A stretch of DNA of 64,000 nt, taken from Mesodorylaimus sp. YZB2_4. Taxonomy: Eukaryota; Nematoda; Enoplea; Dorylaimida; Dorylaimidae. The first letter of the stretch is position 1. Each line of letters begins with the position of its first letter. The notes beneath the pieces were generated by a model, which was not told where the DNA came from, searched no databases, and saw only the letters and a program-made list of their open reading frames with translations. Both the position numbers and the translations under genes were made by a program. The DNA lies in assembly GCA_030248295.1 (NCBI GenBank), contig JASANH010001125.1:248001-312000 (forward strand), given 5' to 3'. This document shows positions 1,702 to 57,495 of this stretch, piece by piece.

Positions 1702-4076
1702 CTAAGAAATATTTGTCGGCGTCACCTTCGCTTTCTCTCTCCGCCCTTTATATCGCCAATTGCCGTACACAGCTAAATAAAACGCCAAATGGAAAAAACT
1801 GACAACCGACATTCCCCAATAGAGGCCCACTACATTCCCCAGGTCGCAGAACATGAGGTAGGAATCCACCTCCTTCGTCTGCTCATACAGACGATAACTG
1901 AGCTCGCTGTAGTACACATGGATCTTGCTGTAAATTATATTCTTCTTCTCCATGTCCGACTCCAAATCGGAGAAACTGGCCATACTTGAATACGTCCAGT
2001 ATCGACAGTGGCAAGGGCACAACTGGCTGGGCACAACTGAGTTACGTATGCGACTTTCGATTCGAGCTGCGAGCTGCCGTTTCTAGAAAAAATTCGGTAG
2101 ATCATAAAAATGGCTCAACTGGTATAATGCTTCCTTTTGACTAGCATAGACGACACTGCCTCATCACTCATTGTGTAGAGAAACAAAAATAGAGCAGAAG
2201 AGTTTGCATTTGATACACATTTGGGAATGTTTTTTTTGTTTCTAGTTTGTGCCATTTTTCCACTTTGAAATTGTCAATAAAAATCGAGCCCTACAGAACC
2301 CTATTGTCTCACGTTCGTATACCCTCAAGAAAAAAGAGGTCACGAGTACCATTCTGTTCAAGTTCTCGCTGGCATCGTCACTGAGGCCCAGGTATCTGGC
2401 GATGTCTGGTGCAGAAAACAAGCCTGTCAAAGCTAATGTGGACGTCGGACTGCACACGGTGCTGGCGTTTGGGCGAAGCAAGTAGCCTGCAGGGATGCAA
2501 CCCAAGTAATCATACACCAGCTCAGTAATCTTTCGTCCAACGCAGTTGATCCCTTGTGGATCATGAAATAAGACATGGCCTCCTTGCATGCCCAACTTTC
2601 CTGCCGGGGCGCAATTATTGATCAGCTTGTGCATGACTGGCGTGACCCTGATGAAAGCTTGTGCCTTATCCGGGGCTGTCACTGGCGATTCCATGACGCT
2701 GTACGGTATTGCATCCACATACACTCGGAAACCGTTGTCGGCGACCTCCTCCAACCAAGGAAAGTCCTCGACAGGTACTTCGGCCTCGACTATCAGACCA
2801 CCTCTCGGACCAGGTCTGGACTGATGAAATGTTCGGTCGTCGGGTTGTGCATTGTCGCTGTCTGAATTGAGCTAAATAAAAAATTAGAAGAGCACCTCAA
2901 ACGGTTGATATGTACTTTACTATATACGAGCTTTTTATATTTTAATTTTTCTTGGATAAAGCCTCTTTTGCCTGGACGGCCAGCAGTCAAACCTTCTAAG
3001 CAGGGCTGTGCGGGGACTGGCACACACAGCAGCGTCCATCTGCTCAGATCGAATTGCTTTATGGTCCACTAGGAGCACCTCCACGCGAGGCCACCAGGAC
3101 TGGAAACCGACTTCCTCAGACGATAGCGGGTGGGCTTTGAACCCTGTCGGTGTTAGACAGCCGAGACTGTCTACTCGTTTGGCTTCCATCTGTCCACTCG
3201 GAGCACCTCGTCGGTACCCGGTGAGTCACCCACGGCCAGGCGTGCAGGATGTGGTTTATGGTCCGCAAACCGACCGTCATCACCGGGGATCGAACCCGAC
3301 ACGAGTCCAGCCACTTGCTCCCAAGCAATACGGAGAGACGAATGCTGGACAGCTGCACCACCGCGACCAAATACGAGTTGGCACCATATACTTACCCTGA
3401 AGACATAACACACGCCATCTTCGTCCGTTGACTGAACCACGATTGCCGGATCGCAGCAATTGAACTCAAGGCTGTTGAACCAACATTTTTTGAACATTTT
3501 CTCGCAGCTCAAAGAAGCTACGCTAGAAAATGTTGAATAATCTTGGACTTGCGGATTGGATTGGAGAATACGCCAGAACTTGACCAGCAATTTTCGGGGA
3601 AAGTGTCGAGGGCGCATGATGGGGGACATGAACAGGGCTAACTGCGTGAAAAACTCATCGCGGGTCAAATGAGAGCTTTCGATGATAGAGTCTGCAATGC
3701 TCAGATTGTTCATTAAAAAAGTCTGATTAAAAAAGAGTTGGACGCAGACGGTGACATTGGAAAATGGCAGGGATTCGAGGTTCACAAAATCAGCGACTTC
3801 ATCTTTGAACCCCGACTGGAGCCAGTTGCGGATTATTTGGCGAATGTAAATCAGCGAGAAACACGATAATACGGTCAAAGTGATCAGAAACGTCGCACGA
3901 ACGATGGGTATTTGATCGTTCAGGGCTTCCTTCCAGCCAGCAACACTCACTTTCTCGACGAGATCATCCCAGGCGCGGCTGAGGGGGTCATTTACAGAGT
4001 CCGACAGACATTGATCAGTGCGACGCTCGGTGGTCCTAGCTTTCGGCTGATCGTGAGAAAATTCTTTGTCAGCCAT
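1702..4076 (-). CDS. DEG/ENaC sodium channel subunit, 3 exons
   Basis: Predicted amiloride-sensitive-type cation channel subunit of the degenerin/ENaC/ASIC family, acting in the plasma membrane as part of a trimer. I read exons 4076-3396, 2871-2313 and 2036-1702. The lengths 681+559+335 sum to 525 codons (524 aa) and phases agree at both junctions; donors are GTAAGT and GTGAGA. TM1 lies around residues 60-85 and is followed by a LPFSNVTVC stretch matching the family's post-TM1 motif. The exon 1/2 junction gives GVCYVF then a Gly-rich GPRGGL segment, as in family members. Exon 3 has a CPCHC cysteine cluster and TM2 with GLYWGMS, the position of the G/S-x-S selectivity filter. ATG at 4076 is the first Met, so an upstream exon is possible. 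Intron 1 (524 bp) contains a SINE. Stoichiometry and ligand cannot be read. Confidence 0.85.
2990..3365 (-). repeat. SINE-G copy in DEG/ENaC intron 1
   Basis: On the minus strand this starts with a tRNA-like head: a GTGGTGCAGCTGTCCAGC-type A box near 3360 and the B box GGGTTCGATCCCC near 3290. The body contains the core GGAGGTGCTCC (twice, near 3075 and 3200), and the tail reads CGCACAGCCCTGCTTA. The same core and tail occur at 16700-16995, 28752-29075 and 59145-59190. It lies in the same orientation as the host gene, within the intron. Confidence 0.65.
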
Positions 4077-4655
4077 TGTGGCCAATTCGATGTTCTACTG
4101 GGTAAGCAGGCGCACACTACTGTAGGTGCGCATACAGTACCAATGGCGATGACAGCTGCTTTGGTTGCGGAGGAAGATTGCCCTAGCTTCATCAAATGAT
4201 AATTGACCTACATTTCTCAGTGACTTCTCTTGACGTGAATAGCACTGTTGCTGAGGTGACAGCCATCGCTGGCTGGTCATCCAAGAACCGCTGGTAGGCG
4301 AGGATCCCGCGGGTTTACGTAGAGGGCCCGAGGCCAGTTTCGAAGGCACGAACCAAAAGCGCCGAGAAACTTCGTAGAGCTTTCTGCTTCGGCGACACAC
4401 TGTATTCGTAATGTTTTATTTGAGAAAGGCTAGCCGCAGAACGAAGGGATAGTAGGCAGGAACCAAACCTTCCCAGTACGAACACAAGTACAGTAAAGAA
4501 CGTCGCACCTGAACCAATATTTTCGGAAGGATAATCTTACGTGAACTGCAATTGCTGGTTTTTTCATGGAGACACAGAAAAGCTGGCGATACACCGATTC
4601 TGTTAGGTAGCAGTGTCTCGGTCTCTACGATGCTGTTTGTTGTTTGCTCATGCAA
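4077..4655. promoter_or_regulatory. Upstream region of DEG/ENaC gene, unassigned
   Basis: This is the 5' side of the minus-strand channel gene. I see no clear TATA box and no second gene. It may hold a non-coding first exon, since open frame continues upstream of the chosen ATG for a few codons only. Confidence 0.3.
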
Positions 4656-4920: not shown

Positions 4921-5569
4921 ATTGTTTACTAAACAAGATATTTATCTATATAGAGTCAAGGCATGCTGAACAACTCAACAGTAAACGACATGCCTCAGTG
5001 GTGCAAGGAAATTATTAACGGGGATAAGAGAATCTCCATTAATCATGTATTCCCAAATTTCAAGATACAATTTACAATAGCTAGAATCTCTGGAGTTCGT
5101 CATGGTCATGGTGTTAAAATTGATCGATTCTTTTTTCTTTTTCAGGTTCCATGATTTCATCGAGACCGCCAATCCTTCAAAATTACCAATACGGGAATGC
5201 CTATCAAAATACCAACCACCAAAATGCCTGCTCTTGTTTATTGTCGCTCACAGGATATGCTCTAAGGCCTTGTGTAGGAGCTCTTCGGTTTTCGAATTAA
5301 CTGCACGTTGATCATTAGAACTGAATTGTACTTTGCGAACATGCGCACTGATATACGTGTCCTTAGCCCGTTGGATTAAGCTTTGCCAGTTTTTTTGTGT
5401 GTCCTAGTAAATATTTTCACACCTGCATTTGTGAATGATGGGAAAGTGAAGAGCGCTGCATGGTCAAGTTGCTCACCATCACTTTAGTCGTTCTATTGCA
5501 GGTTATTTGCAGCATAAACCCATTTTTCCAGGGCAGAACACGTGGAAAATTTCACTATGCACATATGCG

Positions 5570-6060
5570 TGTGCAATGTAGTTAGTTTGAATTCCCGCTC
5601 CAATTCCAGTTCACGTTCTATTGACTTTGGAGCCGAGGTCACCGGGTGAGGATGATGATAATGGAACTGGATCTCACCTAGGTCTGTTTGATAGTGGTGC
5701 AACTTGTTTATCCTGGGTCCCTGTTTCGCCCTGGTACCCGGCCTAGATCCTATGTATTGCGGTGCAAATTCGGTGACCTAGGTTTTGATTATGTTGGGAA
5801 ATGTTGTTTGTTTTGGACAGAACAGGTCGCAGCCAGCAGGTATAAAAGGACTCCTCTTGCTGGCTGCAACCAGAGAACGTATTCTTCTGCCATTTGGTCA
5901 CGACGTGTATTGCTATCGAATAAAGACGTGAAATCTTATGGCGAGGTTCGGACGGGGCAGACGATCAAATCAGCGATATCAGCCATATCGAAACCTGGGT
6001 AAGCAGCATTGAGTGTAACGTAATTAGGAAGTGACTCAACCCCGAATCAACTACGTTACA
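5570..6060 (+). repeat. LTR, plus orientation, followed by primer-binding site
   Basis: A 491-bp LTR-like unit opens with TGTGCAATG and closes with TACGTTACA. It contains a TATA box (TATAAAAG, 5841-5848) and a poly(A) signal (AATAAA, 5919-5924), in the order expected for U3-R-U5. Three bases after its end, TGGGGGCCGCTCCGGG at 6064 begins a 29-nt match to the 3' end and whole T arm of a tRNA, a typical primer-binding site. Its first 378 bp (5570-5947) recur inverted at 6093-6470 with only two differences seen. No polypurine tract or target duplication was identified at 5570. Confidence 0.65.
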
Positions 6061-6063
6061 TTT

Positions 6064-6092
6064 TGGGGGCCGCTCCGGGATTCGAACCCGGG
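6064..6092 (+). promoter_or_regulatory. Primer-binding site (antisense of a tRNA 3' end)
   Basis: TGG plus an acceptor strand and a full T arm (loop TTCGAAT on the opposite strand) sit 3 bp after the LTR end ACA. The match is longer than the usual 18 nt because it covers the whole T arm. The tRNA species was not identified. The opposite strand reads as a tRNA 3' end with CCA. Confidence 0.6.
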
Positions 6093-6470
6093 ACCTCGCC
6101 ATAAGATTTCACGTCTTTATTCGATAGCAATACACGTCGTGACCAAATGGCAGAAGAATACGTTCTCTGGTTGCAGCCAGCAAGAGGAGTCCTTTTATAC
6201 CTGCTGGCTGCGACCTGTTCTGTCCAAAACAAACAACATTTCCCAACATAATCAAAACCTAGGTCACCGAATTTGCACCGCAATACATAGGATCTAGGCC
6301 GGGTACCAGGGCGAAACAGGGACCCAGGATAAATAAGTTGCACCACTATCAAACAGACCTAGGTGAGATCCAGTTCCATTATCATCATCCTCACCCGGTG
6401 ACCTCGGCTCCAAAGTCAATAGAACGTGAACTGGAATTGGAGCGGGAATTCAAACTGACTACATTGCACA
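6093..6470 (-). repeat. Inverted, 3'-truncated LTR of the gypsy element
   Basis: On the minus strand this 378-bp block begins TGTGCAATG 35 bp after the last gypsy reading frame stops (6505). It contains TATAAAAG (6192-6199) and AATAAA (6116-6121), and is broken off at 6093 where the primer-binding site of the facing LTR begins. It takes the place of the element's 3' LTR but lacks the final 113 bp (U5). Only two substitutions separate it from 5570-5947, so the duplication is young. Confidence 0.65.
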
Positions 6471-6504
6471 CGCCCGGCAATTTGAAAGAGATCGTCCTCG
6501 ATCT

Positions 6505-6975
6505 TCAACGCTTCTTCTTGATCGGTTCTGGGGAATACCGCCTTGTCTTGGTTGGGTTCAACCGCAGTCCAGCACCCCTGGTCCGAGTGGGTGCTACCAT
6601 TGATGTGGTTGGAGCGGGCGCTGAGGTGTCTGTGGACGCCGTGGTGCTGACGGTGGGTGCATTGTCGGGATCATTGGACTGCGCCGGTATGACGGGTGGA
6701 ACTTGCGTCGCAGTAAATGGATCCTGTGGGAGAATGGTGGGCGGTGTGGCTGGCCTGGCTGGTGATGTCGGTGGCGTTGCATACGTCGGCGTCATTGAGC
6801 GGTCCAACCTCAGATCAGGTCGCTCTTCCATATACGGCTCAAGGTGCTGTTGCTGTTGCTGAGCCTGCTGTCGTTGTTCTTGCCTCGGTTCCCTTTGTTG
6901 TTTCTGTTTCGTGTTGCCTGTCATTTGCGGTGTATCCTCTTCTTCATCTTCTCGGAGGCGCCTGCCATGGAGCAT
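6505..6975 (-). CDS. Gypsy ORF3 or displaced Pol tail
   Basis: 156 codons overlap the end of pol (6944) in another frame. The protein is rich in Gln, Pro, Thr and Arg, with an acidic start (EDEEEDTP), a polyglutamine stretch and a basic KKKR end. There is no conserved domain. Such low-complexity tails close many Ty3/gypsy Pol proteins, so a small frameshift near 6950 may have split the tail from Pol. It could instead be a separate small protein. It is not a host gene. Confidence 0.5.
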   Translation of the reverse strand: MLHGRRLREDEEEDTPQMTGNTKQKQQREPRQEQRQQAQQQQQHLEPYMEERPDLRLDRSMTPTYATPPTSPARPATPPTILPQDPFTATQVPPVIPAQSNDPDNAPTVSTTASTDTSAPAPTTSMVAPTRTRGAGLRLNPTKTRRYSPEPIKKKR

Positions 6976-9900
6976 AACATGGCTTCAATCGGTTGTTATG
7001 GACCAACTTGCTGTCGGCAGTGGGCTTGTCGCAAAGTCGGATGACACTGTCCACCAACGTCGGCTTCGCTAAAACGACATACGGACCATCCCATTTGGGT
7101 TGCAGCTTTTGACCAAGCCCTTTCGGTACTGTCTGTAACCAGACCAGACTTTTGACTGGGAAATCCCGCTGCTCCCGATTCTTGTCATAGTGATGTTTCT
7201 GCCTTTCTTGTGCTTCTCTTAGGTTGCATCGTATGATGGATTTCATGGCTGCAAGACCAGCAGCTACTTGTGCCGCATATTCAGTAGTGGTCTTCCTTTC
7301 AGTGGGTTGTACCGTCAATTCACCTGGAATTCTTGGCTCGCGACCAAAGAGGATTTTATGGGGTGAATATTTCAAAGATGATTGTATCGATGACCGATAT
7401 CCGAACAATATAAACGGCAAAGCCTCATCCCACTGTTGTCCAAACTGCTTGACATATATACCTAGCATTGTACCTATGACTTTGTTGAATCGCTCCGTCA
7501 ATCCGTTGCACATAGGGTGATACGCTGTTGTGTTCTTTTTCTTGATGTCGCACAAATCGTACACTTCCTTCATCATGGCTGACAGAAATTGCGCACCTCG
7601 ATCCGATACGAGTTCGTTGCAGCTCCCATAACGGCAAATCACTTCTTGTATGAACGCGGAAGCGACCGTTTTCGCTGTGGCGTCAGGAATAGCCACTGCT
7701 TCCACCCAACGGCTGAAGTAATCGGTGAACACGACCACGTAACGCATTTGATTCTTCGTTTGTGGCAGAGGTCCCACCAGGTCTACGCCTACGCGTTCCC
7801 ATGGACCAGCTGTGAGCGGCATGGGTTGCAGAGGGGCGATGTTGCTACGATTCGGATTTTTGAACCTGGCGCAGTACGGGCACCGCTTCACGTACCTCTC
7901 AACATCTTGAAAGTAGCCGTCCCAATAATAGCGCTGCGCTATCTTGTCAAACGTTTTTCCCACCCCAAAATGGGATGCAAACGCGTCACTGTGGCATTGT
8001 TCTAAAATTTCGCCCTTCATGTTCTGTGGAATCACTGTTTGATATACCGGCTCCGAGCTTTTGGTCCATTTCATCAGATGGACTAGGATTCCATCTTTCA
8101 TGATATATCGTGGCTTTTCCAGCAGGAACTGCTTTGCAGTTTGTTCATCTGCGGGTATGATGCCCGCTTCCAAGAATTCAATTCTGGCCTTCAGCCTACT
8201 ATCGTTACGTTGTTGTAACGCGAGATCTGCCAGTCTAGCATGACTTTCCCATAAACTTAAGTCCAGTTGCGAAACTTCCTTCTCCAATGCGGCTAACAGC
8301 ACGTTCAGGCTAGCTCGCGATAGGGCGTCGACGTTGTCGTGACGTTTTCCTGGTCGATACCTAATTTCGAAATGCATTCCTCCCAAGTTCGCGATCCACT
8401 TGGCAAAACGGCCTTCGTGATATTTGTTCTTAAAGATGTATACGAGCGGGAGATGGTCAGTGATGACAGTGAATTTCTGCCCATATACATATGGTCGGAA
8501 CAGTTTTATGGCCCAATGCACAGCCAAACCCTCCAGTTCAGTGACTGGGTAATTCTTCTCGCTAGGCAATAATGATCGACTGGCATAGGCTATCGGGTGT
8601 TCCACGTTGTTATCGTCATTCTGGGCTAGGATTGCACCCAATCCTTCCCTGCTAGCATCAGTGTAGATCGTGAATGATTTCTGAAAGTTTGGGTATGCTA
8701 GGACTGGTGCTGCTATTAGGCGATCCTTGAGTTCGTTAAAAGCCTTCTTGGCGTCGTCAATCCACACGAATGGTACGCTGTCTTTGGTCAGTTCAAACAA
8801 CGGTCGAGCTATCCCCGAAAAGCCTTTCACGAATTTCCTGTAGAACCCACACATGCCGAGAAATCGGCGCACTGCTTTTCTATCCTTGGGTTCTGGCATC
8901 TCCTTAACAGCTCGAACCTTGCTTTCATCAGGTTTGAGACCTTCTGCGGATATGATATGCCCCAAAAAAGGTATTTCCGACTGTAAGAAGCTACACTTCG
9001 ATAGCTTCAAGCGCAAATTTGCCTTGTGTAACCGTTCAAAGACAGCTTGCAATCGTGCTTTGAATTCTTTATACGTTCTTCCAAATACGAGTATGTCGTC
9101 TAGGTATAGTAGGCAATGGGTCCAGTTTAGCCCAGCTAATACAGCAGTCATAAGACGCATGAAAACGGCGGGCGAATTCGTTAGACCAAATGGTAACACT
9201 TTCCATTGGTAATGACCTCCGCCTGGTACCCGAAATGCGGTCTTTTCCTTATCACCTTCTTTCAGCTTTATCTGCCAATAGCCCGATATCAGGTCCAGGT
9301 TGGCAAAGAACTTGACTCCAGACTACGACTGTAATATTTCATCTGTTCGTGGCAAGGGAAACTCATCCCGCAGCGTGATTGCATTCAGCGCTCTGTAATC
9401 CACGCAGAAACGATACTCGTTGCTTTTTTTCTTCACCAAACAGATTGGGCTAGCCCATGCGCTGTACGAGTCTTCAATTTGACCTCCTGCTTTCATCTCG
9501 TCTATCATCTTGTGAACCACCTCTCTCTGACGAAATGGTATCCTCCGGGGAGGAATATGGATTGGTGGGTGGTCACCTGTATTGATAGTATGCTCTATCT
9601 CCACGTTAGCTGGTTTCAAATCCATGGTGCTCGTGGCGAACAGCTTTTTCCTCACCCATCCGCTCAGAAATGCTCTCAGATCTGCTTTTTCCTCCAGGGT
9701 GGCATGCGAGTTGTCGAAAGTCATGTTTTGTACATCCCTGATCAGATCTTCAATTTGCTTTGGTTTCGTCTCTGTGACATGCATATCCGTAGGGATGACT
9801 TCTGCTACTTCCTCCGCGTATCCCATTACAGTACCAATTGGGAGTGAGACTGGGTTCTGCGAGTTATTCATCACTCTTATTGGAACTTGACCCCTTCGGG

Positions 9901-12343
9901 TTTCAGCTAACGCATGGGCTACCAGTACAGTTTTGTCATTTGAGAGTGGCCGGTAGTCTGGTACTATGCACACAGTTCTGTCCGTGTCATCCTGGGTCAC
10001 CAAGCTTCCCCAGACATATTTTTCAACGCCTGGAGGGATGACTACTGACTCGGCCAATGCGACCACTTCATGGCATTTGTCTCCGCTGCGTATTCCTTGA
10101 CAGGCTTCGATAACAGTTGCGTTTAAAGGCACTTGTTGCGAAAAATCGAATTCAAGTTTCCCGAGTTTCGACATGAGGTCTCTTCCTATTATCATAGGTA
10201 CAGGTATACCGTCCAACACTAGCAAGCGATGCACCACCATCCTTCCAAGGATTTGCATCTTGCATGTGACTTGTTTCTTTGCTATTGCAGCTGTACCATT
10301 TATGGATTTCATGGGTGCTTGTTTACACTCCTTCACTTTCAGCGCGGGTTCATTTCGTATGAGAGTTTGCAGTAAGGCGTCGCTGATAAAGGTTTTTCCT
10401 GCACCTGTATCTAGCAGAGCTCGGGACTGCGTGTTCGCATCGAGAAAGTGAACCAAAGGTACTGCGGCTGGTATGGAAGGTTCCTGTTCGCACTGTGCGC
10501 CTAATATTTCGTTGATTTCTGTTGGACTTTTTAGAAACTTTTTGGATTTTTGTCCTCTTGTTGTCCACAAATCAACTTGCACCATCAAGTGCGTCAACAC
10601 CCAAATGAAAGTCAATCCGTAAGCATTCCACAATAGCCATGTCCAAATTATCACTAAAGCGATCGTGACGGCTTCCTGGGCTTTTCCTTCGCTTCTCGAT
10701 TTCATGGAGCCCCGTGCGAGTGATCCGGTTAGGTCAACGCATCCAGTAATGCGTTGACATGCTCGTCCAACGGCGGGCGCGGTTCCTAAGTGGGAGAACA
10801 CCTTTGTTAATGGTGTCCACACCATGTTCCAAATATCGACTGCCTTTACCTGTTCGTTGCTTTCCACGTCCTTATTGGTTTGATCTTTAGCTACCGTGGT
10901 GGCTGCGATGTTTGGCGCCATGTTGTCATTGTTTGCTCCTGTCGTGGCGGCTGACGTATTATTCGTATCCTTATTCGTATTTCCAGCAGTGCCGTTGGTG
11001 ACTACCGCGCCGACTCCGCTCGCTTCCTGCGAGTAAAACTGATATTCGTAATCTGAGGCCATGTACGCCTCGCAATCTACCCAAAACTCTTCCTCGTTCT
11101 GTGCTACTTTGTCGAACGTACTGCATTCGGCAAAAAAGAATTCCTCCAAATTTAAGTTTTCCTCTTCCTCTACTGCTGCGTGATGTCCTCCCGCGTTTTG
11201 GTTCCTGTTTTGGGTGAGTCCCTGATGCAGGGGGCTCCTGCCTATTCTTCCTCGGCTACCTCGATTTGATGAGCTACTGCTTCCGTTATAAGCCCTTCGA
11301 AATTGGTTACTTACGTTACCACTGTTCGTGAGTGGTTTGTCCACGGGCACCGGTTCAGTTCCTTGCAGGCGGGCCTTGGCTCCCAAGTACCAATCGCATG
11401 ATGCGCGTTCGTGGCCAAGATCCCCACAGTGCTTGCATGGGTTCTGACCAGCGTTCTGCTCGAAATGTTGGCGGGCAATTTTGAATGACCGACATTCGGC
11501 CAGCACGTGTCCATGGTTTCCGTCGTACTGGCACTGTCGACGGGCTGATTGTTGTCTTTGGCTGTTCGATGGTTGAGCCGTTTGAGCATTCGACTGGACT
11601 TGCCCATTTCCTCCACGGCCTCGTCCACGGCCACGAGATCCATTTCGGCCACGGAAACTGTTTCGACCACGGCCCCCGATCAACATCGCGTTGAACGTGT
11701 TCTGTACGTCCGTCGGGCTGGGGTTCGAGATGACAGCTGAAGAAGACAGGGAGAACATTCGTTGGCTGACTTCCGCTGCGTTTACTGCTGCGATGACATC
11801 CCCTATGGGTTTAGAGATATTAACGTATGCGGCCTTCCACAGTTTAAAGTTAGGGTGCGATTTATCCTGCACAAATAGGCCTTGCATAAAACGTTCCTTC
11901 AAAACCAAATTCTGAGCCTCGTCCCGTTCACCAGGGTAAGCCAGTTTGACTAAAACTTTCAGATCTCTCAGATAATCGGCTACTGTTTCACTCTTTTGTT
12001 TGCATCTGCTCGAAAATTGCTGACGCCAGACGGCGATCTGATGCGGCTGGATCAGGTTCTGCGTCAACAGTTGTTTAGCGTGATCGTACGTGTCGATTTC
12101 CTCAGGCTCCGCATCTTCCAAGATTTGCTGTGCTTTATCCCTCACAGCCTTTTTTAGTTCTCTCAAGCGAGTTTCATTCGTTATTCCTGTTATTAAGTTA
12201 GCCTGATATTCAAAATGCTTAAACCACCGAGTGACATCCTGTTCTGGACTGCCAGTCAATGGTTTCGTTTCCCAAATCCGATAGAATGGCTGATTCAGCG
12301 AGGCCAGTGCGGCCTGTAAATCTGCATTCTGTGCCAAAGCCAT
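6944..12343 (-). mobile_element. Ty3/gypsy gag-pol, one in-frame stop
   Basis: A single frame runs from ATG 12343 to 6944, 1,799 codons plus the stop codon, interrupted only by TAG at about 9323-9325 in the reverse transcriptase. Order: Gag (residues 1-250), an RG-rich linker, a zinc knuckle CKHCGDLGHERASC (CCHC) near 310, an Asn/Thr-rich spacer, a protease with LLDTGAGKTFI near 650, RT with CVDYRALN and YLDDIL, RNase H (TDASREGLGA), and integrase with an HHCC finger and catalytic D-D-E (GVDLVG, SDRGAQF, NGLTERFNK). The tail reads PCYAPWQAPPRR. The usual residue at the stop, just before GVKFF, is commonly Leu, so a TTG-to-TAG change is likely. The open reading otherwise suggests recent activity. 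An upstream TTG-started frame was not used. Confidence 0.9.
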
Positions 12344-12710
12344 TTCGAAAACACTTAATCGTTTCAAATTTTGTTAACAGGTCTGACACACCTTGTTCGT
12401 GAAAGGGCCAATGGGCCTTCTCAGTGGAGACGCAATGGGACTCCTTTCAAGGAAACACAATGGGAATCCTTGACTGTGGAACGCAATGGGAACCACGAAA
12501 CGGAAGGTACACTGGAAATTCCGTTTTGGAGAACACACTGGGCTCTCCAAGAGTGGACTCACTGGGTACCACTGCGGAAAGACAGAGTGCGACTTTCCGA
12601 CCAGAAGAACACACTGGGAACTTCTTTAGTGAGAACAGAATGCGAACTCACACTCCTCCTCCGGGTCAGATCGAGATCCTCCTCCGGGTCAGATCACACG
12701 TGCACTACGC
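12344..12710 (-). repeat. Gypsy 5' leader with array of ten covarying hairpins
   Basis: Directly upstream of gag, ten small inverted repeats follow each other about every 25 bp: 12403-12419, 12426-12444, 12447-12473, 12475-12497, 12498-12526, 12526-12550, 12552-12573, 12575-12599, 12603-12625 and 12629-12651. Stems of 4-8 bp differ completely between units (TCAAGGA, AAACGGAA, TTGGAG, CGGAAAG, AGAAG, GTGAG and others), yet each is matched by its complement. The loops, about 13 nt, are conserved: AACACAATGGGAA or AACACACTGGGAA on the plus strand. Beyond the array, TCCTCCTCCGGGTCAGATC occurs twice (12653-12671, 12677-12695). No 5' LTR or primer-binding site follows at 12700-13300. The array implies selection on structure plus loop sequence. 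Its role (packaging, translation, protein binding or insulator) is inference. Confidence 0.85.
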
Positions 12711-14075
12711 AGATTATGAAAATGGCGGGTTTTGTTATAAGTGGTTTAGGTCGACATTGCGTGGCGATCCAAGTGTTGCTGCCAGCCTTAGATCGCCCAG
12801 CCGCGTGTACGTTCCCAAAAAAAAACAGATATTACAAAGTCTGAAGCTGCAAATGCTGCTGTCAGGGGCCTGAATGTTCCACAAGCCACTATTTGGAACT
12901 GTGGCTGATTCGCGCCTCTTTCAGGCGAAGCAGTCGGGTAAATAGCGTTGGACGCTATTCTTTCAATAACGAGAGTCCATCGATGCGACCAGCATTCCTG
13001 ACGGTACTTTTTCATGGTTTGGAGATGTCACCCACTCCTTTTAATTCCGCCCAGCCCCTTTAATGCGACATAGAGCTGTCATACTGCAGCCATGAACTAC
13101 TGTTGGGCAGGGCATCAAATGCCCCAAGTTTCATCTGTATCCGTTGGAAGTCATATGTCACGATCATGACAGTTTTAACGGCAAGGGTTCTTAAAAAGAA
13201 TATTATGAGAAAAAACGTTGCTGTAATTTTCGCTTCTGTTCCCTTCGCCTTGTATCCTCTCACTTTACCACCCTGAGGTCAAACTGTAAGGCACATAACC
13301 TCACAAGCCGATATTTCAACATAGTTTACTATGACCGCACCGCACACGAGCAGGTATACTGTAAGCATTAGGATACCAACAGGAGGTTATCAGTGCAGCA
13401 CCACTTACACAGCCACAACAAGAAAACCAGCCAGCATACCCATTCCTGATTGATTTGGGGAGGAAAAGGTAGAAATGACGAACACAACATGATTATCATG
13501 GCGAATAAACTGGAATCTGTACATTCCCTTACAAAAACGTTCAAAAAAAACCAAAACAAAACTGTTATGCGACGTATGCGACGACAAAACTGTGTATATA
13601 TAAATGTTATTGTACGAGTATACCTCAATCATTATGTAGGTCACCCCCTTTTTGTTTTCTTACTTAATTTTGTTTTCCCTTTTCTTTTTGTCTGTCTTAA
13701 TGGACAAAGGTGCTAGTTTTTGGCTGCCTGTACGTCCTGTATATACTGTACATGTATAGTACCCGTATGATAATACTTTAGGCACAGTTTGGTGCAGGAA
13801 AATACATACTGGACATGCTTAAAAACCCCTTTGAGTCCCCTCGCTTGTTTTGCTCTCCAAATTAAGCTTTTCCGAAACACTACAGTAAGTGTTCCTTCTG
13901 TGCACTATGTACGAAGTTTTTGGCTATCATATTAGCTTTAACCTCAAATACTAAGCGGAAAAACGAAAAGAAAAAAAAAGTTTTTTTAAAAAAATTTAGA
14001 CAAGCAAAGCAGGTAAGGCGCATATTTTTCCACATCGTTGAACACACGTAACATCAGACTTTTATTACAGCAGAT
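12711..14075. other. Intergenic, AT-rich, no gene recognised
   Basis: No coding region is recognised. 12801-12826 carries a GCGTGTACGTTCCC...ACAG motif resembling one arm of the hairpin at 49231-49307, so it may be a transposon end. A homopolymer-rich stretch follows at 13965-14000. Confidence 0.4.
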
Positions 14076-14238
14076 ATTCATGTTCATGTTTTACCACATC
14101 ACCAAACGCTTAGGCGCACTCGAGGGTGAAGGGTCATATTTTACACGAAATGATTTACCGGCCCGCGAGTAGAACACTCGCCCGTAACAGCGCACCTAGC
14201 GTGAGAGGCAGACGCCTAGCCCACCAGGCCACGAGGCC
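14076..14238 (-). repeat. SINE-T copy 1 (tRNA-derived)
   Basis: The minus strand begins GGCCTCGTGGCCTGGTGGGC (tRNA-like 5' end with A box) and has a T arm GCGAG-TGTTCTA-CTCGC about 70 bp on. A roughly 85-bp unrelated body ends in an AACATGAACATGAAT-type tail. The plus-strand copy at 47562-47724 matches over the full length. Acceptor pairing is poor, so this is a SINE and not a working tRNA gene. Confidence 0.75.
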
Positions 14239-14305
14239 GGCTGGTCGCCATATATTTGATATGCCATCGCGAATGAGAACCGTTGCTTATCTCTTCTTCT
14301 GTCCA

Positions 14306-15500
14306 TTATGTATTTTGCGGTAGTGGTAACACAGCATTACTCCGCACTCGCAGAATCTTGCCCACTGCTTGTCGCGCGTCTTCTGAGAAAATAATCATGC
14401 ACAATGGTGGCACTGAACGGGCAGCAAAGACGATCATTACTGTCGCCACATTTGCCCATACACCATGAAATATCAAACCAGCCATTCGATATGCTAGAAA
14501 ATGCACACTGATTAGATAATTCAGGGAAAGACGAAAACGCGGCAGCTGAGATTTACGTGGCAGCTGCGTTCTACCGTTCAATTACCTCGCTAAAATCATG
14601 CTTATATCTGAAATACCTTAGTATTTTTGAAGACATAAATGGCGGAAATGGTGCCTCCCCACAAAGAATTTCTCAGCTCTCCCACTCAACAATCGAATAA
14701 GAAAACTCGTAATTTTTCGTCTTACCCAGAACATTAGCCACTAATGATAACCAAATGAAAAATGCCTGAAATAATAAGCGACTTCTTCGACTTTTAGCGA
14801 TTTCTCGGATTTGTTCCATTTGAATCATGTGACATTTTTTCCAAAATGCATACGCAGCATAAACATAAAATACGCCCACACCATACACGCCCAAGTAGAC
14901 AGCTATAGATGACGGAGTGACGAGAGCTAGAACAGTGCCTGGAGCGCAAATACTTCTAAAATTTAACCACTTTTCATCAAAAAGAGTAAAACAAGACAGT
15001 TGAAAATTCCAGATTACAGTTACTGCACCGAGAAGCCAAGCTAGAAGAATGTAAATAATGCAATACTTATTTTGAAAAATTTTCTTTCGCCATGGATGGT
15101 CATCGATTGCTAACGCTCTGTTAACAGATATAAGAAAAGTAAGAAAAATAGAGGCGATGAAATCAGCTGTTTGAATAGCACCGATAATTTTAGCTCCCAA
15201 GTATCCATATATTTGGTGTCCAGTGACAATACACGGGCTACCATAAAAGGCATACACAACGAACATGAGCATATCTGCAGCGTACAGATTCAAGGTCAGG
15301 ATATGAAAAGAATTGAGCTCTTTGAGCCTATAAACTTTCAAAACTGCAGCAATGACCAGTGCATGCAAGGCTAAAGCGAGTAAACTAAACATAAAATAAG
15401 ATAACGCCACTGAAAATGAGAGGGAAGAAGCAGTGATGACAGACTCAGATACATTCAATGCCAAGATGATGCCAGTCTTGTTACCCCTGGTCAGATCCAT
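14306..15500 (-). CDS. Seven-helix chemoreceptor, Srx-like, 2 exons
   Basis: Class-A-like GPCR of the nematode chemoreceptor type, expected in the plasma membrane of sensory cells. Exon 1 is 15500-14726 and carries TM1-TM6. Exon 2 is 14493-14306, with TM7 and a FSEDARQAV segment at the place of helix 8. Donor is GTAAGA, acceptor TTTTCTAG, phases agree, and the total is 321 codons (320 aa), usual for the family. TM3 ends with SVNRALAI, where Srx/Srsx receptors have an NR motif in place of DRY. Several Asn-glycosylation sites sit near the N terminus. ATG at 15500 was chosen because the longer frame starts at a TTG. The ligand is unknown. The subfamily assignment is by motif only. Confidence 0.75.
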
Positions 15501-16258
15501 AATAGCTAGATGCCCAGTCAAACACAAAGCTACATCTGGCGAGAAAATGTCTCTCGGGAAAAGAAGCAAGAATGTCTCTCAGAAATTAATTTTTCATGAC
15601 TTATACATGGCGTTGCCAAGACATGACGACGCGTCGGCGTCTTATTTCCGTTGTTGGATGGCCCTAAGAACAGCTGTCACAGAGGCAAGTCAGCACGACC
15701 TGGTTATTAAATTGCAAGGTACATCGAAATATAAACTTGAAAATGATCGAATTACTCACGGACAAAAGGATGCTTTGTCTCATGGGACATGTTTCCAAGC
15801 AACACCTATCGTCAGCAAAATTAAGTAGCCACGCCTGAACTGGCTCCTTGATCCGATTTCGCTGATAAAAGCACAGCTGGATCAGAAATTCCAGCTTGAA
15901 CATATTATTTTTCGATCGAGGTAATTGGACAGATTAAGCAAACGCGACAAAATTCCTTCACGCCAAGAAATTTTATTTTTTGTGGATGACAGTATTAGCA
16001 CGCGATGAAAACCTGACGGGATACAGTTGTTCCTGGTCAGGAAGAGATGTTGATTCGCCTTATTGCCTTTAGAAATCGTTGAGATAATAACAAAGAGAGG
16101 AGCAGGTACTGATGCTAAGTAATCAAAACAGCAGGAATTTATCTGAAATACGAGCCATAGTCTGTTTTTATCTGCAATCATCTCTGCTTGGACTCAGTGA
16201 CGCCCACTTGTCTTCTTTCTGCTATTACTCAAACAGGCTAAACGAGGCTGAGAGGTGA
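15501..16258. other. Upstream of chemoreceptor, nothing recognised
   Basis: I see no gene or clear repeat here. It should hold the promoter of the minus-strand receptor, but no convincing TATA box is visible. Confidence 0.35.
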
Positions 16259-21670: not shown

Positions 21671-21822
21671 TGACGTATTCATGTCCGTTCGCACCTGCCA
21701 GTACTTTGACAAATTGCGCAACCATCTGAAACAGCTTCGAATAAATGTCCAACTAAGGGCAGTGTTTTGTACAAGTTTGCCCAAACTTGCTGTGTCTGAG
21801 TGACTGCTCTCTGCATTTCATT

Positions 21823-23258
21823 ATGGACATCAATCTTTGCGATAGCTTCGTAACTGGGGCAAAATTGCAACGTCTTTTAAAGAAATCCAACATTATTCCC
21901 AGCGGCAATGAAGTTATTGATGTCCACAGCGAACTTGTTGGTGATCAAGGTGCGACATCGAAAGTACTTAGAGTGTACTTGACTTGGTCTGGTCCAGAAA
22001 ATGGTCATCGTTTACCAAAATCAGTCATCGTGAAGGCCATTGGTAGTGATTCCCTGATCAATGGATATTTCGATTCCAGTGCCCAAGATGAGCTGGATAC
22101 GTTTAAAAGGCAGTTGCTCATGGTGCATGACATCGAATGCTGTGTGTACACTTTGCAGGAATTATGTCGAGTGTTGCCTATGCCCATCTGCTACGGGGCA
22201 ACCAAACTCCAAGATCAGGATGGCGGCATTATTATCTTAGAAGATTTGGGCACCCGGGCAGCAATGATTCCTAAACCAACCATGTTCAGCGCCAGTTTTA
22301 ACTGGAATCAACTTGAAAATTTGTTGGAAGCTGTGACAGATTTGCATGCTTGGTCCGTGAATACTGACGTTGATTGGAAAAATCAAATACCAAGTTTGAC
22401 TGAAAATCCAATTATGGGAACATTTGCGGAAAAATTGCTTTTATCTCTGCCTCACACCAAGCAAGAATATCCAGATATGTTTACTGGCGTGGATGAAAAG
22501 AAACTGCAAGAATATTTGACTGTAGAAAATTATTTGAAAATTTGTGGATGCAACCCTCGAGAGCGTTATGGTTTACCTTTAGTTCTGGTTCATGGCGATT
22601 TGCAAGTCATGAATTTACTGTTTGAAAAAGTAGACGGCAATGGTGGCCAATCAATAATTGGAGATAGGATTATTGGTGTGCTTGATTGGCAATGCAGTCA
22701 TCCTGGTTGCGGGGCAGAAGATTTGGCACGAATTCTGAGCTGGTGCGTTCCCATGGAAATCAGGAGACAAAGAGGCGAAGAAATCATGAATAAATATGTT
22801 CAGGTGAGGAAAAGATGGCCAAAAAATTTGGTAACAAGTTTGGTTTCATGAAAAATATTTTTTGCCTGAAATTTTCACTCAACTTAACAATCAATCGAAA
22901 ATCATAGTCAATTGCGCCATCGACTCTGGGGGGAAACATTCTTGGTTAGATAAGGATCCTGCTTGGACGCTAGTTGAATAAAAATAAATGAATTTTAAGA
23001 GACACTCTTTTTAAGCTTTTCAATTCTAAAGTCGTCAACCCTAGCAACATTATCAATCATAAAAATTTCAAGCGAGCTACGGACGAAATGTTTGCCTATA
23101 GCGGTCTCACAGTTGGCTGCGGCATAGTCGGAATGGTTGCGTGGGCGAAGTCTCTGACTGGAGTAACAAAGGAAGAACGAGAAATTATGAGACTTGATAT
23201 GATTGAGCGAACAAAAGGACATTTTTTGGATTCCTTGAAAATTCTTGGCTGGAACTAG
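21823..23258 (+). CDS. CHK kinase-like protein (EcKinase / DUF1679 type)
   Basis: Member of the choline/ethanolamine-kinase-fold family that includes ecdysteroid 22-kinases and nematode DUF1679 proteins. These are small-molecule phosphotransferases, usually cytosolic. Exon 1 (21823-22803, 327 codons) has the catalytic loop VLVHGDLQVMN near residue 260, with Asp as base and Asn as metal ligand, and the second metal motif GVLDWQ near 290, followed by DLARIL. The donor is GTGAGG. The C-terminal part is read at about 23000-23258 (FAYSGLTVGCGIVGM... to GWN-stop). The exact acceptor and a possible small middle exon at 22860-22975 are unresolved, because the phases do not join directly. ATG 21823 was chosen over a TTG. 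The substrate cannot be read from the sequence. Confidence 0.75.
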
Positions 23259-24747: not shown

Positions 24748-25455
24748 CTAAGCAATCATTTCTTCCATGACTTCCATCAGAGCATTATCATCATGACGAC
24801 GACAGTTTGATTTTTGCGTCAGTTCAGCTGGGCATTTGACACGATGGAATTCCATATTCGGATTATCAGCATTTTTGAACCAATCAAATCGCCAGAAACA
24901 TCCTGGTTGCAATTCTCTCGGTAACTGATTGCACTCGTTGCGACTACTCACTCCGCCATATCGCTTTCCCCACCCGTCTGGTGGCGCACCCCATTGACTG
25001 GCGCATCCATTGAAAATACCTACTCCGCCTCCAGGAATTTGCAGATCGAAGTGATTTTGACCCAAATCGCCTCCAGTATTTGTCACTTGCACAACCATTG
25101 TCTTACCAGTGGTAGCGCCGCTGGTGAACTTTAATTCATAACAAGCGCAACACCAATCGCGTTCCGATTGGCCACTGAGGTGTGCAGCGGCAAATCCATA
25201 AGCCAAGTGGTCATTGACAGCCCAGGGTTGATTGGACGTGCACGTGTAACTTGAACCACCATTGCATCCACTGGCAGCATTCACATCAGCTGGCTGCCAA
25301 CCATTCTTCTGACACGATTTTACTGGCGAGGAGACGTCTGCCTTGCCATTCCATCCGCAACTCACTTTACAACAATCCCAGTAACGCGTGGTCTTGCCTG
25401 TGTTGCACTCAGACAGGGATAGTGCGGCGAGGAAGAGGACAACGACTAGCAACAT
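24748..25455 (-). CDS. Secreted GH45 endoglucanase (cellulase), fungal type
   Basis: Endo-beta-1,4-glucanase of glycoside hydrolase family 45 that hydrolyses cellulose with inversion, secreted. 235 aa from ATG 25455, no intron. Residues 1-17 form a signal peptide ([17 protein letters not shown]). TTRYWDCCK near residue 22 fits the GH45 signature and supplies the first catalytic Asp. [10 protein letters not shown] near 130 supplies the auxiliary Asp and the catalytic acid. The many paired cysteines and the GVSSRNEC and [14 protein letters not shown] blocks closely resemble fungal Cel45A. There is no cellulose-binding module. The ORF extends upstream for 88 codons without signal-peptide character, so the second Met was chosen. 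A TATA box lies at 25536-25542. The intronless structure beside intron-rich RBM25 suggests horizontal gain. Confidence 0.93.
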
Positions 25456-25535
25456 TTCAATAGGTGGACGAACAGATGGCACAGCAGTAGATGGTTTTAC
25501 GGTCAGACACAATATGGAAATCCGCGGAGGCTCAT

Positions 25536-25542
25536 CCTTATA
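25536..25542 (-). promoter_or_regulatory. TATA box of the GH45 gene
   Basis: TATAAGG on the minus strand lies about 85 bp upstream of the start codon at 25455, so transcription would start near 25510. This shows an animal-type core promoter in front of a fungal-type gene. Confidence 0.5.
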
Positions 25543-26125
25543 TGGCCACCAAATGTGTCTTTTTACACCTACAGTTCTGTTCATCAGACTCACAGTGAGG
25601 CTGAATCGACGAAAAAATGATTCATTTTCATTGGCAGTTGACTGCCTTTTTCTGCGTCTTGTGAACTGACTGTAAGGATAACAGGCGGTGAGTTCATCGA
25701 GCTTGTTAAACCTGCGCATGCGTCAGCCGATACGTCCACAGAAAAACCATACCTATGTACTGGCATACACATGACTACTATTTGAATCCACTGCCGCATC
25801 TGTCTAACTTGATTGCGTATTCAATTAGTCTAACCCACACTAGTCAACACAGACCCTGCGCCACACTGTGGTTCACCAAACTTGTTTATTCACAACTAAT
25901 AGTCATCGAAAAAAGCAAAGCCCTAAGCAGTCAAACATGCTTCATATCAGCGTAGCACAATGCATTACCTCAGTGACCGGCTACACACGTGCATATATCC
26001 AATTACACTCCATCACTGAGTTCTCCAATAACCACAAACTCCGTAACGTAATTATCGCAGCATGAACGATAAAAACTTACAAAATCCTTAATTCATTTCC
26101 CTTTTGCTAGCGGGTACAGCAAAAT
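25543..26125. other. Spacer between GH45 and RBM25
   Basis: It contains the 3' end of the minus-strand RBM25 gene and the upstream region of GH45. No further gene or repeat is recognised. Confidence 0.4.
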
Positions 26126-40219: not shown

Positions 40220-41683
40220 TTACAAAACGGCTTCTTTTTCCTGCATTACACTGCCATTTCTCTTGGCGGTCATTCTTTCTTCCTCGTCCCACAACGGCGT
40301 CATTTCCGTGACTATCCCGTTCATGTCCGTTTCCATTGCCTCCCCGCCGTATTCACCCACCGAAGCATTATGCGATATCTGCTGTTTCCGTTTTCTTTGG
40401 TGCACCCACAAAATTGTCGATGGTCTTTGTTTCCTGATTCTGGCTAGTCTGTCCCCAGATTTCTTAGTACCACATTCTCGAAGTAGCTTTTTCAATTCAC
40501 TTCGAATCTTTAAATTTGACCCGTAATAAATGGGGAGACGAACTGTGGCATTGACTACTGTCAGCAAAGTGACCGTGTCCGATGCGAATGAATAGAAATC
40601 GCTGTAACGATGAAGCAATTTTTCATCCAAATGTTCCAAAAATGTTAAAATTAAATTTAATAAATTACATAATAAATATGATGTAACAATGGCGATCATC
40701 ATTTTCCTTGCCGATTGAGCGCATTTCACTCGTTTTCTCATTTCTTCACCCGCCTCTGAGTGTACATCAGCCGGCAATGGTTGGACCGATGTACTGATCG
40801 ACTGACGCTCTTTCGTACTACTTTTTCGACGATCGCTATTACTTTTTTGCAATAAGCCATGATTTGTTTGATTATGAATCGTATCTCGTCGTAATACGAT
40901 TCTCCACTTTTGAACGATTAAAAAATTTAAAATAAATAAAACTAAAAATGGTAAAAATACTTGAACAAAATGTAGGGCATAAAAAGTATAAACTTTTGAA
41001 TAATAAAAATCATAAACTAACCACGATCGTTTCAGATTATAATAAGAAAATGTCCCATAACATTCTTCAGTTGGCAAAACATCGATCTCCCAAAATACGA
41101 CCATCCGAAATCCGATACTCGCCAAAATGACACAAATAATAACAACATAACGTTTTGTGTGAGTTATACGAACGAATGTACGATTAGCGTAAAGTTGCAT
41201 GACCTCTAAATATCGTTCTACTGTACAAGCCACAATCAAATAAGATGAGGCCAAAGTGGCTACTCGACTGAGAGTGAAGAAAAAAGGCAGACAAATGTGC
41301 CAAATAGAATACAGAAAAAAATTAGTGAAATGTTCGTACCAAGTTGCCAGACTCATGACCACGATGTAAGTGACTGCGATGTTGATATCGATCACGGCCA
41401 ATGCTGATAAGTACATGAGATAAGTGGTACGAAGACTCGGTTGCAGAAGAATTTTTAATAAAATTATATTAAAAATAATTCCAATAGCGCAAATAGAAAA
41501 TCCTGCAATTCCAATCAAATAAAATCGAATTTCTAAGAACGGTGTCTCTTCGTACTCTGAACATGGATTTGCTACTGTGGGAGATGATACATCGTGACTC
41601 GCCACGTCTTGCCACGCAGATGAATTGTAATTGGAATTGGGTACAAATTCGCTCAAAGGTTTATAAAGGGTTATATTGCCCAT
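40220..41683 (-). CDS. Neuropeptide-type class A GPCR, intronless
   Basis: 487-aa seven-helix receptor starting at ATG 41683. The N-terminal 60 residues have Asn-glycosylation sites (NIT, NSS). TM1 is near 55-80. TM3 ends in ACTVERYLEV, where ERY replaces DRY. A long basic third intracellular loop (about 270-330) follows, then TM6 (MMIAIVTSYLLCNLLNLIL) and TM7 with RLPIYYGSN at the NPxxY position. The C-terminal tail is long and Arg/Lys-rich. The overall pattern resembles invertebrate FMRFamide/myosuppressin-type receptors, but the ligand cannot be assigned. The absence of introns contrasts with its neighbours and could reflect retroposition or family habit. Confidence 0.8.
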   Translation of the reverse strand: MGNITLYKPLSEFVPNSNYNSSAWQDVASHDVSSPTVANPCSEYEETPFLEIRFYLIGIAGFSICAIGIIFNIILLKILLQPSLRTTYLMYLSALAVIDINIAVTYIVVMSLATWYEHFTNFFLYSIWHICLPFFFTLSRVATLASSYLIVACTVERYLEVMQLYANRTFVRITHTKRYVVIICVILASIGFRMVVFWEIDVLPTEECYGTFSYYNLKRSWLVYDFYYSKVYTFYALHFVQVFLPFLVLFILNFLIVQKWRIVLRRDTIHNQTNHGLLQKSNSDRRKSSTKERQSISTSVQPLPADVHSEAGEEMRKRVKCAQSARKMMIAIVTSYLLCNLLNLILTFLEHLDEKLLHRYSDFYSFASDTVTLLTVVNATVRLPIYYGSNLKIRSELKKLLRECGTKKSGDRLARIRKQRPSTILWVHQRKRKQQISHNASVGEYGGEAMETDMNGIVTEMTPLWDEEERMTAKRNGSVMQEKEAVL

Positions 41684-56099: not shown

Positions 56100-57477
56100 T
56101 TATTCACCTCTTTTCCAACGACGTAGCAGCGCGGCTTTTGAACTTCCATGTTCCACGTAGTCAAGATCGGCGGGGTCCTCGAACTGGATGCCGGGGACAC
56201 CCAGCTTTGGATTTCTCATCAGGAAATGAGCAGGCGTTAGTGCCAGACCGTCTTGAAAATCCGAACCAACGTGTACCAATGGCCTCGAATTCAACATAGC
56301 CTCCACCTCAGTGAGGACTGTTTGTAACTGCATCTGCGAGAGGCGCAGGTGCTGAAATGACTTGCGAAGTGATCGCTTGACCAGTTGAACCAATCGTTCA
56401 TACACTCCACCCATCCAGGGTGCCCGTTCTGGAATAAACGTCCATCGGATACCAAGATTGCTGACATAGGACAGTACGTTGTCGTCCTTCGTGGCTGTAT
56501 GCCACAAGTCTTCCACAACTGACTTTGTCAGTTTGAATTGCGCAGCATTATCTGACAAAATATGGGAAGGTGTGCCACGTCTGGAGATGAACCGGCGGAG
56601 GCAGAACAGAAATTGATCAGCAGTCAAATCTTCCATGAGCTCCAAGTGGACTGCCCGCGTGCTCATGCATGTAAATAAGCATATCCAGACCTTTTTCGCG
56701 TCTTGACCTTGTTTGTTGTAAAGTGGACCTAAATAATCCAAGCCAGTAAACGTGAACGGTGCGGTCTCTCGGACCCGTGAGGCAGGAAAATCTGGCATGG
56801 GCGGAGGGATATATGGTCCCCCTTCGGCCTTCTTGCAGGTCAGACAGGATCTTATGTGCTGACGAACGACGGAACGCCCAGACGGGATCCAAAACGCGTG
56901 TCGAATTTGCGATAAGGTATGGGCTGTGCCAGTGTGCAGTAATCTTTCGTGAAAACTGCGAATGACCAACGTGGTAAACAATCCCTTTTTTGGCAGGAGG
57001 ATCGGATAAACGGCATCTTTCTCGAGATTCGCGTGCTTCAGTCGGCCTCTGCAGCGCAGGATGCCATCGTCGCCCTTGCAGAGGTTTCAAGTGATCCTGG
57101 ATTGGGCTCCTTTTCCCTTTGTCCATTGCTTGAAACACCTCCGCGAAATGCTGCTCCTGAACGTGCTTGACCCATACGATCTGTGCTGACTGGATATCGG
57201 CAGCAGTCAGGGGCCCTTTATCAGAGCACGTCTTGTCTTTCAATTTTCGGATAAATCGCAAACACCATGCGGTGACTCTTAACAACTTCATCAAACTGGA
57301 AAATCGATTTTGATCAATGCCCAATGGGCTGGTCCGCACGTTCGGATTGTGTTCAGTGTTAAGCATAGAAGTTTCGAATAAAACGCACGGTTTCTGTTCT
57401 GAGGAAATTTTCTCCAAAGTAGCTGTATCGATTTTAAACTGCTCAGCTTCTGGTGTCCATGCTGAGTTGTCCTCCAA
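56100..57477 (-). CDS. BEL/Pao integrase (rve) with HHCC finger
   Basis: Frames at 57477-56617 and 56981-56100 together cover the linker, the zinc-binding segment (HERLLHTGTAH ... CLTCKKAEG, pattern H-x4-H, C-x2-C), and the catalytic core with D in FTGLDYLGPL, D in LSDNAAQF and E in MGGVYERLVQ. The end includes the LTPAHFLMRNP motif typical of BEL/Pao. One frameshift near 56960-57000 divides the two parts. The core itself is open, so integrase would be catalytically complete if expressed from the shifted frame. Confidence 0.85.
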
Positions 57478-57495
57478 CAGCCACGGTGGTCCATG

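Follow-up and report, generated by a model that had tools for sequence, protein, structure and literature searches.

Introduction

In Drosophila, the 5′ untranslated region of gypsy contains an insulator made of short tandem repeats, 12 units in 340 bp according to the available excerpt of PMC2374998. Unlike the units of the array described here, those of the insulator are bound as DNA by a zinc-finger protein; they share a fixed TGCATA core and lie in AT-rich sequence. Tandem repeats whose unit number varies between copies also occur in the untranslated regions (UTRs) of LTR retrotransposons, as in plant Ty3/gypsy satellites; these UTR repeats are not known to form covarying hairpins.

Cis-acting sequences of Ty1 and Ty3 are located at the ends of the RNA, at both of them in Ty3, and those that serve Ty1 packaging within the first 580 nt; the excerpted part of the source describes the cis-acting structures through which Ty1 and Ty3 Gag choose their RNA as lacking a clear definition, even in yeast (PMC4974528). 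According to the same excerpt, the Ty1, Ty3 and retroviral packaging regions, like the array, lie near the primer-binding site (PBS) at the 5′ end of the RNA, and the genomic RNA doubles as mRNA (PMC4974528). The Ty1 packaging region has a pseudoknot, as described in excerpt, whereas the array consists of one hairpin type that is tandemly repeated and contains few palindromes.

In STNV, the coat protein binds stem-loops cooperatively at a set spacing near the 5′ end, and the excerpt of PMC4836477 describes these signals as weak hairpins, repeated and offered to a protein that multimerises, with spacing being important. The packaging signals of single-stranded RNA viruses (the STNV 5′ stem-loops, the MS2 operator and its variants) resemble the array in being several small stem-loops whose folding presents the recognition feature. 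Packaging signals of single-stranded RNA viruses span coding and non-coding sequences, whereas the array comprises 3–25 contiguous units in the non-coding leader of an LTR element, and its binding is putative. In the MS2 operator, a short apical helix is underlain by a bulge, a layout that the units of the array resemble. In the open-licence literature searched, no equivalent of a retroelement leader built of tandem covarying hairpins was found.

Element Carrying the Array

The window, i.e., the whole analysed stretch of 64,000 nt, contains a minus-strand element with the domain order gag, protease, reverse transcriptase, RNase H and integrase, which is that of Ty3/gypsy; this copy is split in two frames (Table 1). 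In its gag-protease frame, Pfam RVP scored above the cut-off and Retrotrans_gag slightly below it. No direct repeat of at least 40 nt was found in 5000–14500, an inverted LTR pair being present instead; this copy, which is without flanking direct LTRs, was placed as Ty3/gypsy by its proteins. Both the type of element and the leader position proposed in the sequence-only reading were supported. Reading of Gag by eye revealed one or more C-X2-C-X4-H-X4-C motifs downstream of a stretch rich in RG, and Pfam zinc knuckles were detected at sub-threshold scores only, in the relative P0001.

In other copies, the PBS is TGGGGGCCGCT and complements the 3′ end of tRNA-Pro(CGG) from the tRNA genes of the same genome; judged by this complementarity, the primer is tRNA-Pro(CGG). 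In the leaders read, the first hairpins lie a few tens of bases downstream of the PBS. No copy of the PBS was found on the minus strand of the window, where the element is without that end: it resembles other copies only as far as 12675, and the leader start is tandemly duplicated at its broken 5′ end (12654–12695).

At the opposite end of the element (5567–6473), the minus-strand 3′ LTR continues into 34 nt ending in CCA, which correspond to the 3′ end of tRNA-Pro, and then into an inverted LTR copy. This region has the appearance of a fossil in which minus-strand DNA primed by the tRNA became joined tail to tail and, if so read, would name the primer directly.

Table 1. Coordinates of the element, its leader and the ten hairpins in the window
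Feature	Position	Strand	Description
Gag-protease frame	9323..12343	(-)	From ATG 12343-12341; stop inside pol
Reverse transcriptase, RNase H and integrase, separate frame	6944..9199	(-)	Pfam RVT_1, RT_RNaseH, Integrase_H2C2 and rve above cut-off
3′ LTR part	6093..6473	(-)	One arm of 381-nt inverted repeat; TATA-like and AATAAA motifs by eye
Leader segment, directly after PBS in other copies	12654..12695	(-)	19-nt core twice: 12677-12695, 12654-12672
Hairpin 1	12629..12651	(-)	5 bp, 13 nt enclosed; alternative pairing preferred in context
Hairpin 2	12603..12625	(-)	5 bp, 13 nt enclosed
Hairpin 3	12575..12599	(-)	7 bp, 11 nt enclosed
Hairpin 4	12552..12573	(-)	5 bp, 5′ bulged U, 2 bp, 7-nt loop
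Hairpin 5	12526..12550	(-)	6-9 bp, by which inner pairs are counted
Hairpin 6	12499..12525	(-)	7 bp, 13 nt enclosed
Hairpin 7	12476..12496	(-)	4 bp, 13 nt enclosed
Hairpin 8	12447..12473	(-)	7 bp, 13 nt enclosed
Hairpin 9	12425..12445	(-)	4 bp, 11 nt enclosed
Hairpin 10	12401..12422	(-)	4 bp, 1x1 mismatch, 4 bp, 4-nt loop; annotated stem probability near 0 in context

Layout and Folding of the Array

Ten inverted repeats precede gag on the minus strand (12651–12401), with a loop-to-loop spacing of 24–27 nt. Their outer stems of 4–7 bp enclose 11–14 nt. The enclosed sequences are alike, often TTCCCAKTGYGTT, with some drift: eight units share CAKTG, unit 1 has CATTC and unit 3 has CACTC. The stems differ (GTGAG, AGAAG, CGGAAAG, AGTGG, TTGGAG, AACGGAA, GTGG, TCAAGGA, GGAG and a mismatched tenth), each lying opposite its own complement. 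This confirms the initial description of ten inverted repeats upstream of gag with similar loops and differing stems that nevertheless pair. The further claim that each stem faces its exact complement does not hold throughout, given the 1x1 mismatch of unit 10 and the bulge on the 5′ side of unit 4. Rfam gave no match at the gathering score in the window or in 14 loci.

Comparison with shuffled sequences, proposed earlier as a check, gave a z-score of −3.72 for the 266-nt sense strand, and none of the 200 shuffles folded as low. As a whole, the antisense strand folds less well (z −1.76, its energy being reached by 10 of 200 shuffles), and it forms the same local hairpins, with a mean pair probability of 0.81 vs. 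0.74 for the sense strand at a span limit of 45; in the absence of this limit, the values are 0.43 and 0.54, respectively. When the sense strand is folded under the span limit, eight of the annotated stems have probabilities of 0.68–0.99, while those of hairpins 1 and 10 are near 0. Folded singly, the units reach −2.3 to −10.7 kcal/mol, values that were equalled by 1 to 45 of 200 shuffles.

Arrays in Related Families

The first 188 residues of Gag were used as a query in the 145-Mb genome, where 150 of the 256 candidates were scored, with at least 150 matches. Leaders were chosen by gag homology alone: 30 loci and 40 more leaders, minus L016 (match begins at gag residue 58) and L020 (near a contig end), both left out before counting, made 68. 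The first hairpin-count detectors were too lenient and did not set leaders apart from controls. The later, blind detector requires at least three non-overlapping hairpins with loops at least 72% alike and at least two different stems.

The detector passed 44 of the 68 leaders, belonging to 17 of the 26 leader families, as compared with 0/30 gag segments, 1/117 window chunks and 2/204 shuffled leaders. In 20 BEL/Pao elements from this genome, the sequence preceding the protease domain was cut into 400 half-overlapping windows, of which 4 passed. At the same threshold, earlier leader ends gave 43/68, and slightly different ends added L062. At 66% loop similarity, 52/68 leaders passed, but so did 3/30 gag segments, 12/117 window chunks and 11/204 shuffles. 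Each of the 17 passing families has a passing leader that starts at the PBS; among those that do not pass, a PBS is present in five and absent from four.

Reading of the leaders showed that families have loops of their own, for example CAGT-AGGTCCTCGAATAGGCC-ACTG in L017 and CTGT-TGGTGCCTTGTAGCCC-ACAG in L029. Two unit types are present in L042 (GCAA-TCGCAGGTGG-TTGC and GATAA-TCGCAGGAGG-TTATC) and in L051 (GTCAG-ACACCCTACGAAGG-CTGAC and AGCA-ATCCCAACGAAGG-TGCT). In this genome, the array is a clade-wide trait with family-specific loops, and is wider than first noted.

The number of units varies among close copies: 8 and 12 in family F2, 4 and 5 in F4, and 7, 25 and 6 in F6. Leader L059 contains at least 25 units arranged as alternating pairs of two stems, vs. 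7 in L042 and 6 in L073, which are close relatives; this is an expansion of the array by a two-unit block.

A correlation of loop similarity with gag distance was weak and non-significant in 11 families (Spearman 0.198, Mantel 404/5000), and a loop code tracking gag phylogeny was dropped. No relatives were found in viral contigs by gag or by reverse transcriptase. In a protein database, where 7994 candidates were scored (length-limited), a single gag relative was found; it shows 43% identity and is located on a contig of 2.3 kb. In five detector-negative leaders of distant families (L065, L067, L068, L070 and L071), a reverse layout was seen by eye, in which the GC...TGCGG flanks are conserved and it is the apical stem that varies; the arm-swap test of L068 was non-significant.

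Pairing within Arrays

Swapping of right arms among the ten window units worsened the mean folding energy from −7.55 for own arms to −5.31, and 2 of 5000 swaps were as good as the original. In family F1, which includes the window copy (16 distinct units from three copies), the pair count of own arms was superior to that of swapped arms (0/10000). Over the complete set of 16 rows, the share of stem cells that pair is 71.8% vs. 53.2% in shuffles, 32 stem cells are changed on both sides vs. 13.6, and the covariation score is 0.618 vs. 0.285 (0/500 for each), slid registers giving 0.18–0.32. Two coarser F1 measures did not rise above shuffles, namely, pairs changed on both sides (94/500) and further pair types (105/500).

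Cells changed on both sides were also in excess in F8 (17 vs. 6.8, 13 rows) and F6 (17 vs. 7.5, 14 rows), with 0/500 shuffles in both cases. The F8 rows comprise 12 of the 13 distinct units plus one further L032 unit, and the F6 rows all 14 distinct units, including two that pair poorly. Repeated stem-loops maintained by pairing, as expected of a packaging signal of multiple stem-loops, were found in F1, F6 and F8.

Among 13 families, own arms paired better than swapped ones in F1, F6 and F8 (0/10000 each) and in F12 (128/10000). The test was non-significant at 5% in F2, F3, F4, F5, F7, F9, F10, F11 and F14; some of these results are explained by stems that are nearly uniform within the family. 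When folding energy was used, it was non-significant in F5, F7, F9, F11, F13 and F15.

RNA or DNA

In 49 PBS-anchored leaders, 36 sense ATG triplets were found vs. 245.6 expected, and 172 on the antisense strand; 34 leaders have no sense ATG. With one leader per family (22), the sense count is 26 vs. 94.4 (first-order chain) or 125.6 (shuffle), the antisense count is 85, and 13 leaders have none. For these counts, the leader was cut at the first ATG of its last 70 nt, which lowers the expectation by an estimated one per leader or less, approximately. Such avoidance is the pattern of a ribosome-scanned leader and suggests that ribosomes pass through it.

Unpaired bases between the outer stem and the apical helix were compared in 13 families. 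They lie on the 5′ side in 67 units and on the 3′ side in 3, and are symmetric in 64; nine families are mainly 5′ and none mainly 3′, F1, F5, F6 and F14 being mainly symmetric. As the families are related, neither the bulge-side counts nor the ATG counts represent independent draws. An excess of G-U over A-C in stems was not observed (29 vs. 28; 10 vs. 7 in a second count), and because no asymmetry was seen, it was not used as a test of RNA sense.

The sequence-only reading had preferred an RNA array and allowed for a role at the DNA level. The avoidance of ATG on the sense strand only and the bulges located mainly 5′ of the apical helix favour the former; the array likely works as sense-strand RNA. 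The alternative is a DNA-level array of palindromic protein sites, i.e., an insulator or promoter element as in the Drosophila gypsy leader. Position and size are similar to those of the 340-bp gypsy insulator with 12 sites, as given in the excerpt of PMC2374998, and the lack of a G-U excess is also in agreement with it. However, the sites of one factor should not have freely varying stems, the avoidance of ATG is restricted to the sense strand, the bulge is commonly 5′, and the Su(Hw) core is absent from the array, which makes DNA sites very unlikely. The Su(Hw) insulator had been cited as a parallel of a different nature, and this difference was borne out: TGCATA does not occur in 12395–12675, repeated YRYTGCATAYYY was not found, and 70 leader segments contain four TGCATA in total on both strands. 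An insulator of the Drosophila type was ruled out by the absent core.

Translation itself could be the function of sense-strand RNA. The hairpins would keep the leader locally folded for scanning, or would regulate scanning, and the reader would not be Gag. The avoidance of sense ATG suggests that ribosomes traverse the leader, and hairpins of −2 to −11 kcal/mol, which ribosomes can unwind, are weak enough for such passage. Nevertheless, the repeated loop sequences, the 5′ bulges and the 25 units of L059 are left unexplained by a translation device, which we regard as unlikely.

Kissing loops are reportedly present in the Ty1 5′ packaging region (PMC5454406). Loop palindromes of at least six bases were found in 0/30 F1 cores and, among 13 families, only in F3 (4/11 units), F9 (2/11) and F10 (1/9); with so few palindromes, dimerisation through kissing loops was dropped.

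Changes between Copies of One Family

A DNA search of the genome found five array-bearing loci of the window element, all before gag; three are identical and two show 91% identity. When the window copy is compared with the two diverged loci, changes affect 3/218 stem, 23/242 loop and 11/36 linker positions. Polymorphic columns are 4/110 in stems vs. 16/121 in loops (Fisher p 0.010) and 7/19 in linkers (p 1e-4). Because F1 stems change less than loops or linkers, stem pairing appears to be held, and the loop is not fixed; the initial claim of a fixed loop thus fails for F1. Stems are slow in F8 too (stem 2/224, loop 19/384, linker 11/124). In F6, stems and loops are about equal and linkers are fast (14/361, 16/337 and 63/369, respectively), and F3 and F12 show no stem conservation between copies. 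The comparison covered 3 F1, 6 F8, 7 F6, 3 F3 and 4 F12 rows, some of them trimmed.

Compensatory change, which had been postulated from the window, is seen between units of an array; between copies, no outer-stem pair in the five family alignments changed on both sides and still paired. Two outer-stem pairs (in F1 and F12) changed on both sides and lost pairing, and 29 one-sided changes broke the pair in 22 cases and left G-U in 7. One paired double change was found outside the counted stems, in the inner helix of another family, F8, where pair 8-22 is G-C in L029 and A-T in L032.

These counts bear on the possibility that the arrays are a mutational product without selected function, in which slippage of reverse transcription would multiply units and template switching between arms would keep them complementary. 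Such an origin agrees with the unit numbers that differ between close copies of F2, F4 and F6, with mostly Watson-Crick stems showing no G-U excess, and with the zero paired double changes in outer stems between copies. It is distinctly unlikely, since the slow stems of F1 and F8, the same site in 17 families, the near absence from the BEL/Pao elements of the same genome and the shared bulge side remain unexplained by it.

Proposed Function

Tentatively, and with somewhat less than even confidence, we consider the leader hairpin array to act in the RNA as a multivalent platform on which Gag of the same element would dock, and which would thereby mark that RNA for packaging. The leader RNA would fold into tandem hairpins, ribosomes would scan through the hairpin-bearing leader, and the C-terminal basic and zinc-knuckle region of Gag may bind the repeated hairpins cooperatively. 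The loops and bulges of each family would provide specificity, so that co-resident families could package their own RNA, and a replacement of loops between families would represent a change of specificity. A single stem change would break pairing, and stems would turn over only through rare paired changes, which would account for their slowness, while loops would drift and be levelled by unit duplication.

Gag docking is consistent with own-arm pairing and both-side changes in F1, F6 and F8, the family arrays, the slow stems, the avoidance of ATG and the 5′ bulges. Against it, conservation between F1 copies is lower in the loops, where Gag would make contact, than in the stems; paired double changes are absent from the outer stems between copies, F3 and F12 stems are not conserved, and own-arm pairing is non-significant in nine families. 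Furthermore, there is no G-U excess, the antisense strand also folds locally, and the correlation of loops with gag is weak. The repeated loops would fit any multivalent reader, and the partner could be a host RNA-binding protein acting in export, localisation, stability or escape from silencing. A host protein would be expected to require one loop across families, yet the loops differ by family, and a host reader seems highly improbable.

A broader version of docking by Gag, which we find rather doubtful, is that the array is a clade-wide evolving RNA identity tag. A variable stem, a bulge on the 5′ side, a short apical helix and a loop would be kept as its architecture, and the loop sequence would be replaced in each family in turn; every one of the many co-resident families would thus have a private multivalent packaging code that is read by its own Gag.

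A clade of arrays with up to 25 repeats of a candidate signal, varying by unit, copy and family, would make the selection of RNA by Gag directly testable. The same clade would also make it testable how co-resident related elements avoid cross-packaging of RNA, and the arrays are a ready natural set of covarying hairpins.

Other Features of the Window

Remnants of BEL/Pao type are located at 56100–58858 (minus strand), with Peptidase_A17 and integrase domains in separate frames. Host-like genes at 21787–22851, 3171–4085, 40220–41683 and 14673–15569 encode a kinase-like protein (DUF1679/EcKL), an amiloride-sensitive sodium channel and two 7TM receptors. A GH45 cellulase gene occupies a single frame at 24748–25719; among the matches listed (120 of 1208), its relatives are mostly fungal and also include nematodes, insects, a springtail and a tardigrade.
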